Of a stretch of DNA of 64,000 nt, positions 31,812 to 39,820 are shown one piece after another. Where the stretch lies: positions 913,501-977,500 of the forward strand of contig NZ_CP072642.1 in the NCBI RefSeq assembly GCF_018304765.1, in the 5' to 3' direction. The position numbers and the translations under genes were made by a program. This DNA comes from Chloracidobacterium sp. N. Its GTDB lineage: Bacteria; Acidobacteriota; Blastocatellia; Chloracidobacteriales; Chloracidobacteriaceae. Within the stretch, counting starts at the first letter, position 1; every line of letters starts with the position of its first letter. Below the pieces are notes generated by a model that saw only the letters and a program-made list of their open reading frames with translations, made no database searches and was not told the DNA's origin.

Positions 31812-32849
31812 TCACGCCGGCTTTGTCCGGCTGATGACTATGGGGGCGCCACGCTGGGCAAGTGAAGCCTGAATGGCTTCAAGGGTACGAACGACCGCCA
31901 GCCCGCTTTTCCCGTCGGAAACCGTCAGACTGCCGCGCCGCAGCCCGTCGAGGAAGTAGCGCGCCTGCGCCTTGAGCGGTTCTTCAAGCTGAATGCGCGG
32001 AATGGAGATGTCACCTTCACGGGCAAGCAGTTGGAATTGCCCGTAATCTTCATAGTACGGCTCGCGGATCACCCCTTTGTCGTAAATGCAGAGCGGCCCG
32101 ATGGTGGCGAGGTCATCCCAGACGAGCATCTTCCGGTCGCCCACGACAGTAATCTCACGCACCTTGCGCGGGTTGAGCCACGACACATGGACATGCGCCA
32201 GCAGGTCATTGGGATAGCGCAGGGTGATGAACGCCAGGTCTTCGATGCCGGGCTGGAGATAGGCCGCGCCCGAAGCCGAAACTTCGATTGGCGTGGCGCC
32301 GGTCAGAAAGTCGAAAATGGCAATGTCGTGGGAAGCCAGGTCATAGACGGCATTGACATCCTTGCGAATCGGCCCCAGGTTCGTACGGGTCGAAACCATG
32401 GTGTAAATCCGCCCCAGATCGCCGAATTGCAGGTATTCCTTGAGCTTGAGAATCCCACGGTTGAACAGGAAGACCTGCCCGACCATCAGCAACCGGTTCC
32501 GTTCGGTTGCCAGGGTGACGAGTTCCTCCCCTTCTTCCGCCGTGCGACAGAGCGGCTTTTCGACCAGAACGTGCTTGTCGGCCAGCAGCGCATCCCGGAC
32601 GATGGCATGGTGCGTGTTCGTCGGCGTGGAGATGACAACGGCGTGAATGTCGGTTTCGGCGAGCATCCGGCGGTAGTCTTCAAACAGGGCGAGGCCCGGA
32701 TAGGCCCGACCCACCCGCTCCAGGTTCTGGCGGCTGACATCCGCGGCCGCCACAACCCTGGCTTCGGGAAAAGCCGAAAATGTGCGGATGTGGTTCGGCC
32801 CCCAGTGACCACACCCAATGACGGCGATATGAAAGGTGGCTTGGCTCAT
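31812..32849 (-). CDS. Gfo/Idh/MocA family oxidoreductase
   Basis: A 345-residue NAD(P)-dependent sugar oxidoreductase. The Rossmann loop is IAVIGCGHWGPNHIR at the N-terminus and the catalytic EKP motif is VEKPLCRT. The C-terminal sheet domain ends normally. WbpB/WlbA-type enzymes with this GHWGPNH start oxidise UDP-sugars such as UDP-GlcNAcA at C3 in surface glycan synthesis; that role is plausible but not proven. It stands alone on the minus strand, divergent from a GT-C-like membrane gene. Confidence 0.9.
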   Translation of the reverse strand: MSQATFHIAVIGCGHWGPNHIRTFSAFPEARVVAAADVSRQNLERVGRAYPGLALFEDYRRMLAETDIHAVVISTPTNTHHAIVRDALLADKHVLVEKPLCRTAEEGEELVTLATERNRLLMVGQVFLFNRGILKLKEYLQFGDLGRIYTMVSTRTNLGPIRKDVNAVYDLASHDIAIFDFLTGATPIEVSASGAAYLQPGIEDLAFITLRYPNDLLAHVHVSWLNPRKVREITVVGDRKMLVWDDLATIGPLCIYDKGVIREPYYEDYGQFQLLAREGDISIPRIQLEEPLKAQARYFLDGLRRGSLTVSDGKSGLAVVRTLEAIQASLAQRGAPIVISRTKPA

Positions 32850-36199: not shown

Positions 36200-36850
36200 A
36201 TGAAATCTTCTGAAAATGACAGCGGAGCAGGACGCCCGCTTGCCCGGCGTCCGACACGCTACCGTCTGGAAAAAAAGGTCAACGGTATCTGTGTCCTGGA
36301 AGTCGTGGGACGCCTGGCTCCCAGTACGGCACAGGAAGAGTTGACAACGCGCGTGGACGACCTCATTGCCTCCGGCCACGCCAACTTTCTCATTGACCTG
36401 CGCGGTGTGAGCTACATCAGCAGCACCGGTGTCGGGTCACTCATCGAGTGCTATCACCACGCGGAACGTGCTGGTGGCAAGCTCAAACTGCTCAATCCCT
36501 CGCAGGCCGTGCGGCAAATCCTCACCGTGTCAAAGCTGGACAGTGTGTTCGACATCTGGACCGACGAGGAAGCCGCCATCCGCAGCTTTGGAACAACTGG
36601 CACTGAGACTGCGCACCCGGAGGAAGACGACCCGCCGACGCTTGTCCCTGAAGCTGTCAAACGTCCTTCTGCTACCACTTCCGCGCCAGCGACGGCAGCC
36701 GCTTCCGCCTCCAAGGCGTCTCCCGCAGCACCGGAGACGCCAGAGGTCAAACCGGCACCGGCGGCTCCCCAACCACGGATTGTCAAGGCCGCCGATGCCC
36801 CCCCGCTGAAGAAAAGCCGCTCACGGCGCGCCAAGCCTTCTTCTCCCTAG
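36200..36850 (+). CDS. STAS domain protein with Pro/Ala-rich tail
   Basis: A 216-residue protein. Residues about 20-130 form a STAS domain; the switch segment is VSYISSTGVGSL, so the usual DSSG reads SSTG and the phospho-acceptor position would be Thr76. Residues 140-216 are low-complexity Pro/Ala/Ser/Lys and end in a basic cluster. It is probably an anti-sigma factor antagonist or a related switch protein; no kinase or phosphatase is adjacent. It differs from the STAS protein at 24.4-24.8 kb in both the switch site and the tail. Confidence 0.85.
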   Translation: MKSSENDSGAGRPLARRPTRYRLEKKVNGICVLEVVGRLAPSTAQEELTTRVDDLIASGHANFLIDLRGVSYISSTGVGSLIECYHHAERAGGKLKLLNPSQAVRQILTVSKLDSVFDIWTDEEAAIRSFGTTGTETAHPEEDDPPTLVPEAVKRPSATTSAPATAAASASKASPAAPETPEVKPAPAAPQPRIVKAADAPPLKKSRSRRAKPSSP

Positions 36851-36859
36851 AAGCACGGC

Positions 36860-38824
36860 CTAACCTGCCGCCGACAGTCCAATGACCGTGCCGAAGGCCA
36901 GGGAGTCGCGGATGCGCAGCGCCGTTCGGACAGCCTGCTGCAGGCGGATGACCGGGAAGGTGGGGGCCCGCCCCTCGGCCAGGTCCCGGAGAAAGCCCTC
37001 GAAACAAGCCCGCTGGCTGGCAGGTGACGGCGTAAGGTCTTCGCGCTCAAGGTAGCCAGCCGGTGTCTGGACGGCCAGCCGTTCACGTGGGCTTTCTGCT
37101 CCAAAAGTGGCGCTGATGTGAATGCTGCTCCCATCGGCGAGTGCCAGTGTCAGGGCAAGGGTCGTCAGGCGTTCATGACTGACTTCCTGCGCGTAGAGCC
37201 GCTCCGGGACGCTGTCGGTGAAGCTCATGGCCAGCAGAACGGCTTCGGCCAGCCGCAATGTCGCTTCGGCAGAGGGCGCCGGGCAGGTGGCATGGAAGTC
37301 ATATCGCAGCCAGGACGGAGCCTCCGTGCGCAGCCGCTTCAATTCAGCAAAAGCCGGCGTCGTCAGCCGGGCAAAGCCAATCATCAGCGGCACATCCTGC
37401 GCCATGGCCAGCCGGAACACTTCCTCCAGTTCGCTTTCCTCATCCGTAGGCAACTGGGTCAGAAAAAGCGGCAGCCGGCCCTGCAAAACCTCACAGGCAA
37501 GACGAAAGGCGTCCCCGGTGCGTCCCAGCAGCACCACGTCGGTCTTGCCGTCCGAACCCAGGGGCGACACGTCATTCGTGCCGTATTCGGCATCGAAGGT
37601 TTTCACAAGCTGCCGCGCCTTTTCCGGGGTGGGCGCCACGACGCCCGTCACGCGAACCTGTCTGGAAGGGATGATTTCCCGCAGTGCGTCCTGTCCGGTG
37701 TCGGCAATCACGGCCAGCCCGACCATGCCGCTGAGTTTGGGACGCGCAACGCCGACATCGAACCGGACGGCCGGACTCGCCTCAACCGTGGCCGGATAGG
37801 TGACAGCCACGGCGCGACCCGGCGCGGTGTCGGCGCGGAGCATTTCCTGTACGGCGGCATCAATGGCATTGAAGTCATGACGCTCGATGGCCGGCCGGGC
37901 GGGCGGTGGCAGTGCCGTCACAAAACGCAGAAAGGCCTCCATGGCTGGAAGAGGTGAGGCTGCCGTCGCCAGCGGGTCCTGCTCACCGCGTCCGCCAAAC
38001 CAGGTAAACTGTATCTGCATTTCCTGGGCGCGACAGGCGGCCCAGGCCGCTTCGGGCAGCATCGGCAGGCTGGCAATCAGGCGCGCCTGTGGCTGGGCCA
38101 GACTGGAAAGCCACGGCGTCAGGCATTCGGCGGCGGCTGTGTCGGTGACAATCAACACCGGGAGGCGTTGCGCACGGGGTGGCGCGGCGTCCAGGTCACA
38201 GAGATCGGCTCCGGCAAGCTGACACAGCCCACGCGCCAGTCGTCCGGCCACGTTTTGCCCGCCAACGCCCACCGGCAGGCCCAGACGCACTTCAGCCGCC
38301 TCAACGGCCCGCCAGGCAATGCCGCCCGGAAGCGCCAGCAGCGCCAGATCGTCGGGCACGTCTTCCGGGATGGCCACCAAGCGGTTCGTGGCGACAAAAA
38401 CCAGCGGGCCCGGAAGGTCCTGCCCGTAGCCAACCCAGGCCACCCGCTGTCCAATCTGGAAGCCACTGCGGGGCGCAACGGCCGTGATGACACCGACGCC
38501 GCCGTACTCGATGCTGAAGAGCGTCACCTTGCGCGTGACGAAGGTTTCGTAAGCCTTTTTGAAGCCTGCCTGCCGAAAGGAGGACCACATCCGGCGGACC
38601 AGTCCGGGTTTGGCCTCGGGTTTGGCCGCCGGCGCCAGCGCCGTCGTTTCCGTGCCGGTGCGGGCTTCGGGCGCGGCCGGCCTTTCGTTTGCCGCCAGCG
38701 TGGCGGCGGCATGCAGCAGGCACTGGCTGACGCGAATCACCGCGCCGCCCGGCGCCAGACGTGGGACAGGGGTTTCAGCATAGGTGAAGCGCCCCGTGCG
38801 GGGGTCCTGAACTGGTCGTTTCAT
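36860..38824 (-). CDS. degenerate two-domain oxidoreductase (MDR + Gfo/Idh/MocA fusion)
   Basis: A 654-residue protein with the layout of bi-domain oxidoreductases found in polysaccharide clusters. Residues 1-340 follow a zinc-type alcohol dehydrogenase-like (MDR) fold: TYAETPVPRLAPGGAVIRV, then IEYGGVGVITAV and IGQRVAWVGYG. Residues about 350-654 follow a Gfo/Idh/MocA fold. Both active parts look lost: the nucleotide loop GLGLLGQ reads GGQNVAGR, and the EKP motif reads TQLP. An Ala/Pro-rich insert replaces residues 48-75. It is probably non-catalytic or altered in function. It is the last gene of a three-gene minus-strand unit with a zinc-ribbon protein and a monooxygenase-like protein. Confidence 0.72.
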   Translation of the reverse strand: MKRPVQDPRTGRFTYAETPVPRLAPGGAVIRVSQCLLHAAATLAANERPAAPEARTGTETTALAPAAKPEAKPGLVRRMWSSFRQAGFKKAYETFVTRKVTLFSIEYGGVGVITAVAPRSGFQIGQRVAWVGYGQDLPGPLVFVATNRLVAIPEDVPDDLALLALPGGIAWRAVEAAEVRLGLPVGVGGQNVAGRLARGLCQLAGADLCDLDAAPPRAQRLPVLIVTDTAAAECLTPWLSSLAQPQARLIASLPMLPEAAWAACRAQEMQIQFTWFGGRGEQDPLATAASPLPAMEAFLRFVTALPPPARPAIERHDFNAIDAAVQEMLRADTAPGRAVAVTYPATVEASPAVRFDVGVARPKLSGMVGLAVIADTGQDALREIIPSRQVRVTGVVAPTPEKARQLVKTFDAEYGTNDVSPLGSDGKTDVVLLGRTGDAFRLACEVLQGRLPLFLTQLPTDEESELEEVFRLAMAQDVPLMIGFARLTTPAFAELKRLRTEAPSWLRYDFHATCPAPSAEATLRLAEAVLLAMSFTDSVPERLYAQEVSHERLTTLALTLALADGSSIHISATFGAESPRERLAVQTPAGYLEREDLTPSPASQRACFEGFLRDLAEGRAPTFPVIRLQQAVRTALRIRDSLAFGTVIGLSAAG

Positions 38825-38853
38825 GAAAAATCAGGATGTACGCCCGTCCGCCG

Positions 38854-39288
38854 TCAGGCATCGTCTTCGCTGCCCGTGGGGTCCTGGTCGGCAAGGTAGG
38901 CCGCAATCTGCCGGGCAACTTCACTGTCCTGGAGCGCGTGGCGGAGCGGGGCATCGAGGGCTGTCAGGCAGTCCGGGCAGAAACGCACGACCGGCGCCGC
39001 CAGCCGTTTCCCACAGCCGGCGCAGTGTTCCGCCAGAAAGCGCATCGTCTCGTTGGCGACGGCCTCCCACTGGGGATGGGCGTCGAAGCGGTCACTGGCC
39101 AGCGCGCTCAACTGCCACACCAGAAGGGCCAGCTCACCGACTTCATGCCAACTGTCGGTATAGCTTGCGGCTGGCTCGAAGATGGATGGCGCTGCGATGT
39201 CCCGGGCCGTCACTTCATACAGCGTCCGCAGAAGCGCCTGCCGGTATTTGTGCAAATGCTGCTTGGCCGCATAGACCGGGGGATTCAC
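38854..39288 (-). CDS. small protein with C-terminal zinc ribbon, unknown function
   Basis: A 144-residue protein. The first 85 residues are helical (YRQALLRTLYEV, ELALLVWQLSAL) with no recognised family. Residues about 89-110 carry two Cys pairs, CAGC and CPDC, forming a zinc ribbon. It overlaps the ABM-domain gene by 4 bases (ATGA) and lies 29 bases before the degenerate oxidoreductase, so all three are probably cotranscribed. No function can be assigned. Confidence 0.7.
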   Translation of the reverse strand: MNPPVYAAKQHLHKYRQALLRTLYEVTARDIAAPSIFEPAASYTDSWHEVGELALLVWQLSALASDRFDAHPQWEAVANETMRFLAEHCAGCGKRLAAPVVRFCPDCLTALDAPLRHALQDSEVARQIAAYLADQDPTGSEDDA

Positions 39289-39638
39289 GACGGTTGGGTC
39301 CCTTCGGCGAAGGGAACGGTCTCGCCCGCCCTGGCCGGCTTGACACTGTACAGGATGTCGTAGGCGAGGGGATATTCAAGCAGCTCCCGTGCCGATTCCT
39401 GGAGGGCGGCAATGAAGGGGGAGGCAAGGTGGGTACGGAAGTTTTCCAGGCTCGTCCATACCTCATAGGACACAAAACATGCCGGGTCATCAGCCCGCAC
39501 GTGAAAGTCATAGTAGAGGCAGTGGGGATGCTGGCGGATGGGTTCGATGAGCGCACTAACCGCGCCAAGAACCTTCTCCTCGCAGCCCGGACGGGCCGTA
39601 AGCCGTACCATGATGGCAACCGGGCCGTCAGGTGTCAT
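39285..39638 (-). CDS. antibiotic biosynthesis monooxygenase (ABM) domain protein
   Basis: A 117-residue dimeric alpha-beta barrel domain. VRLTARPGCEEKVL and CFVSYEVWTSLENFRTHLAS match the YgiN/quinol monooxygenase type. Such proteins oxidise quinols or act on reactive small molecules without cofactor. The start at 39638 follows AAAGGAG by 4-5 bases; a frame to 39671 adds an unlikely leader. It heads the minus-strand unit with the zinc-ribbon protein. Confidence 0.85.
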   Translation of the reverse strand: MTPDGPVAIMVRLTARPGCEEKVLGAVSALIEPIRQHPHCLYYDFHVRADDPACFVSYEVWTSLENFRTHLASPFIAALQESARELLEYPLAYDILYSVKPARAGETVPFAEGTQPS

Positions 39639-39791: not shown

Positions 39792-39820
39792 TTCGGTTTT
39801 CCAACCGGCCGTGTTATACA
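39792..39820 (+). promoter_or_regulatory. extended -10 promoter for the acyl-CoA dehydrogenase gene
   Basis: TGTTATACA (39812-39820) gives a TGn-extended -10. TTCGGT at 39792-39797 is a weak -35 at 17 bases. It is 45 bases ahead of ATG 39865, in the 226-base gap between divergent units. Confidence 0.5.

Follow-up and report, generated by a model that had tools for sequence, protein, structure and literature searches.

A predicted pseudoenzyme of MDR-Gfo/Idh/MocA descent retained beside a zinc-ribbon gene in Chloracidobacterium

Gene layout at the locus

The window, i.e., the whole stretch of 64,000 nucleotides that was analysed, comes from Chloracidobacterium, a hot-spring phototroph. A group of three minus-strand genes, referred to below as the cassette, lies in it between two plus-strand genes.

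36200-36850, plus strand: STAS-domain gene, flanking the three-gene group
36860-38824, minus strand: bi-domain gene, 654 aa; degenerate MDR-Gfo/Idh/MocA bi-domain protein (predicted pseudoenzyme)
37436..37471, minus strand: site of the lost Gfo EKP motif, residues 452-463, PLFLTQLPTDEE, located by alignments
38177..38272, minus strand: remnant of the MDR Rossmann beta1-alpha1-beta2 unit, residues 185-216, located by aligning 6 degenerate proteins with 6 canonical ones
38854-39288, minus strand: zinc-ribbon gene, 144 aa, GTG start; zinc-ribbon helical protein
39285-39638, minus strand: ABM-domain gene, 117 aa; antibiotic biosynthesis monooxygenase-like, accessory
start at 39811 or 39874, plus strand: acyl-CoA dehydrogenase gene, on the opposite flank of the three-gene group

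The stop of the ABM gene and the GTG start of the zinc-ribbon gene overlap by four bases (GTGA). The STAS-domain protein has a long Pro/Ala-rich C-terminal tail, which ends in KKSRSRRAKPSSP and is kept across the genus. About 4 kb from the predicted pseudoenzyme, the minus-strand gene at 31812-32849 encodes an intact Gfo/Idh/MocA dehydrogenase with the motifs GCGHWG and VEKPL; it lies near the cassette in most, not all, Chloracidobacterium genomes.

Descent of the bi-domain protein

In Pfam, the bi-domain protein matches only GFO_IDH_MocA, and this below threshold (E 0.018; 16.2 of 24 bits); its strongest match to a solved structure is weak. Its identity as an MDR-Gfo fusion, proposed in the sequence-only reading, is nevertheless borne out by profile-profile alignment. 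Thus, hhalign matched the protein to six class-level bi-domain oxidoreductases with a probability of 100% over 640 of 652 columns, with both domains aligned in the same order and at full length. Ordinary homologs of the same class are readily recognised: all six carry GFO_IDH_MocA (best 2.9e-23), the Gfo C-terminal domain and ADH_zinc_N (best 1.2e-17), and five carry ADH_N. No canonical bi-domain paralog was found in Chloracidobacterium, which has only separate MDR and Gfo proteins, and in a tree with the canonical forms the degenerate clade sits on a very long branch. The predicted structure has a pLDDT of 36 and so offers no fold-level confirmation.

Purifying selection on both domains

Orthologs of the bi-domain gene are present in six genomes of the genus, two of them MAGs labelled uncultured Chloracidobacterium and uncultured Blastocatellia. 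The full-length frame remarked on earlier is intact in all six, with no internal stops and with identities of 64-96%. Pairwise dN/dS, calculated by the Nei-Gojobori method for the 15 pairs of orthologs, averages 0.166; this value is approximate, since dS exceeds 1 for most pairs (up to 1.7). The close pair G000-G001 (dS 0.145) gives 0.139, in agreement with the overall ratio. For comparison, dN/dS is 0.23 for the zinc-ribbon gene, 0.10 for STAS, 0.11 for EamA and 0.03 for acyl-CoA dehydrogenase.

By region, the most constrained part is the GroES-like half (residues 73-175; 0.115), followed by the Gfo Rossmann part (0.16) and the Gfo C-terminal part (0.20); an insert at residues 49-72 stands at 0.51, while all domains otherwise fall between 0.12 and 0.20. 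The constraint on both domains is real, and the view that this oxidoreductase homolog is conserved holds. Six intact orthologous frames together with a dN/dS of about 0.17 mean that the gene is neither a pseudogene nor a chance reading frame.

Loss of catalytic and nucleotide-binding motifs

The six orthologs were aligned with six canonical proteins, and the outcome was checked on 23 canonical homologs of the phylum, all of which keep both GxGxxG and EKP. Both of the losses claimed from the sequence alone (GLGLLGQ to GGQNVAGR, and EKP to TQL) are upheld. In the MDR half, GLGLLGQ faces GQNVAGR in the window protein, and the orthologs have GQNVAGR, GQNLTGR, GQNPVGL, GRNLTGL and the like. The pattern is GxNxxG in all six, i.e., glycines 1 and 3 are kept and glycine 2 is always Asn. 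Past beta2, the window protein lacks 29 residues relative to the G009 homolog; the Asp that closes beta2 (residue 212) is present in five orthologs and replaced by Asn in that of G001. Also missing are Cys, His and Glu residues that ordinary homologs conserve in their MDR half.

In the Gfo half, the six orthologs carry ADTGQD or a similar sequence in place of GAGNFA, with all glycines of the motif lost. VEKPL faces LTQLP in the window protein, and L-T-x-L-P is found across the orthologs; the histidine of GEVCH is replaced by Glu (E527), and about 10 residues of the loop before this site are gone. The 29-residue deletion, GAGNFA, the GEVCH histidine and the Gfo substrate loop thus extend the list of losses first drawn up. 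The replacements at the old motif positions are themselves invariant among the orthologs (G to N191, E to T456, P to L458, H to E527).

The surviving GxNxxG and the Asp at residue 212 may leave room for a ligand, possibly for some nucleotide binding. This raises the alternative that the protein is a sensor of a nucleotide or sugar-nucleotide, which has lost the chemistry, still binds its ligand in a remodelled MDR pocket and signals via the zinc-ribbon protein. The invariance of the two glycines and the Asn, the Asp in five of the six orthologs and the strong constraint on the GroES-like half are all consistent with such a role. However, the deletion after beta2 takes away a large part of the first Rossmann half, and the Gfo half has lost every glycine of its own motif, so that we regard a sensor as rather unlikely.

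An enzyme that is still active, through an active site that has moved or through another cofactor, would likewise be full length and under selection, and sequence-based pseudoenzyme calls can err (PMC10211241). Shifted active-site residues were therefore sought in the sequence alignment: none of the six orthologs has a Lys between residues 449 and 466, and no His is invariant in their Gfo half. With the substrate loop and the MDR-half Cys, His and Glu also lost, a relocated active site is, in our opinion, improbable. The non-catalytic character first read from the motifs stands, and the bi-domain protein is predicted to have no enzymatic activity.

The zinc-ribbon and ABM neighbours

The zinc-ribbon gene adjoins its bi-domain counterpart in each of the six genomes that have the latter, in keeping with the coupling suggested earlier. 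In four of them it overlaps the bi-domain start by 4 bp (ATGA); the gap is 29 bases in G000 and 54 in G001. The two genes are placed for co-transcription. The zinc-ribbon protein has the motif CxxC-x11-CxxC, whose cysteines C89, C92, C104 and C107 are invariant in eight homologs, metal binding being predicted only. Its Pfam matches are weak zinc-ribbon matches only, and a fold search with its model (pLDDT 65) gave no significant match.

The ABM protein is a clear PF03992 member (6.9e-15; 55.4 bits versus a cut-off of 23.1). Its gene is adjacent in four of the six cassettes (G000, G001, G002 and G005) and missing from those of G004 and G006; these two form a sister pair in the bi-domain tree, and a single loss is therefore enough. 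The three-gene system with a conserved order envisaged in the sequence-only reading must therefore be given up: the invariant unit is the zinc-ribbon gene plus the bi-domain gene, i.e., two genes rather than three. All six cassettes have the same genes (STAS and acyl-CoA dehydrogenase) as immediate flanks.

Distribution and absence of the cassette

A search of 396 genomes of the phylum gave scores above 1200 bits for the degenerate bi-domain form in genus members alone; the match ranked next reaches 106 bits. Genus members were likewise all that was returned by a pattern scan, which requires exact short peptides and covered 84,980 species with one genome each, and no relatives were found in viral contigs. 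Among the genomes of the phylum searched, the zinc-ribbon family was seen only in the genus and in two FMO-less members of the same family. Standalone zinc-ribbon homologs (L051:6722-7258 and L052:6790-7266; about 36% identity) occur in two sister genera without an FMO gene, one beside an rRNA methyltransferase and the other beside a protein kinase-GGDEF-TPR protein. In G007 and G009 the zinc-ribbon homologs stand without a neighbouring bi-domain gene and do not share a gene context.

One phototrophic species of the genus, represented by a 95% complete MAG (G003), has no cassette at the syntenic locus (G003:C134:34000-52000, L107). Within this 82-kb contig, genes for a large membrane protein, EamA, L33 and STAS have the same order as in the other genomes and are followed by an aminotransferase-like gene. 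The adjoining acyl-CoA dehydrogenase is also missing there. In a tree built from the flanking membrane protein, G003 groups with G002, which suggests secondary loss of the cassette. Since one species does without it, the role of the cassette is dispensable. It should be noted that G003 has an FMO gene, so phototrophy does not require the cassette; a link to phototrophy was rejected because FMO-bearing G003 and G008 both lack the cassette. The FMO (bacteriochlorophyll a protein) gene of G008 (L100, G008:C758:4686-5735) belongs to a second genus of the family; either this genus is phototrophic as well, or the contig is a contaminant.

Pseudoenzymes frequently regulate their active relatives, and the intact EKP-bearing Gfo protein encoded about 4 kb away invites the thought that the bi-domain protein serves as a pseudo-subunit that regulates an active Gfo/Idh/MocA dehydrogenase, for example the 31812-32849 product. 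The gene for the latter, however, does not adjoin the cassette in G004 or G005, and G003 retains it despite having no cassette; such a pairing therefore strikes us as very improbable. A decaying gene, intact only by recency, would agree with the empty locus of G003, but it is contradicted by the low dN/dS over 15 pairs with such high dS and by the stop-free frames in six genomes, and hardly merits consideration.

Interpretation

Homology and loss of catalytic residues coincide in orthologs under purifying selection, as expected of a pseudoenzyme. The explanation that we favour, and consider reasonably probable, is that the bi-domain gene encodes a pseudoenzyme kept for a non-catalytic role, in which it and the zinc-ribbon protein would together serve as scaffold or regulator. 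An MDR-Gfo/Idh/MocA ancestor would have lost dinucleotide binding and hydride transfer before the sampled Chloracidobacterium species diverged. The zinc-ribbon protein would be made together with the pseudoenzyme and is most likely its binding partner; gene overlap and joint presence and absence point to such a physical partnership. The pair would then scaffold or regulate another protein, with the ABM protein as an optional associate. More tentatively, the two may be obligate partners in a complex that unites a dead double-Rossmann oxidoreductase with a family-specific zinc ribbon, i.e., a genus-private regulatory or assembly module of an undescribed kind; this stronger version is possible rather than probable.

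We know of no described MDR-Gfo pseudoenzyme, and a literature search found no paper on one. If the favoured explanation is true, the locus offers a clear example of a metabolic enzyme that has become non-catalytic in both of its domains, is retained by selection and has a co-translated partner, in a genus of which isolates are available. Naming the gene an oxidoreductase from homology only would then be misleading.

Comparison with known systems

The ordinary MDR-Gfo/Idh/MocA bi-domain oxidoreductases of the phylum (about 720-740 aa) are of the same length class as the window protein (654 aa) and share with it the domain order, conserved N-terminal residues and the full-length profile match. 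Unlike them, the window protein, at 23-26% identity, has no GxGxxG, GAGNFA, EKP or His and has deletions in the first Rossmann fold and the Gfo substrate loop. Its C-terminal half aligns with Gfo/Idh/MocA dehydrogenases (PF01408; e.g., inositol 2-dehydrogenase), but it falls below the Pfam cut-off and is without their catalytic residues. The product of the third gene shows a clear family match to ABM/PF03992 proteins (PDB 4zos, 1y0h), and this member, unlike the bi-domain and zinc-ribbon genes, is optional in the cassette. Pseudoenzymes as a general class (PMC5106787, PMC10211241) show the same conservation of a fold family without its catalytic motifs, under selection.
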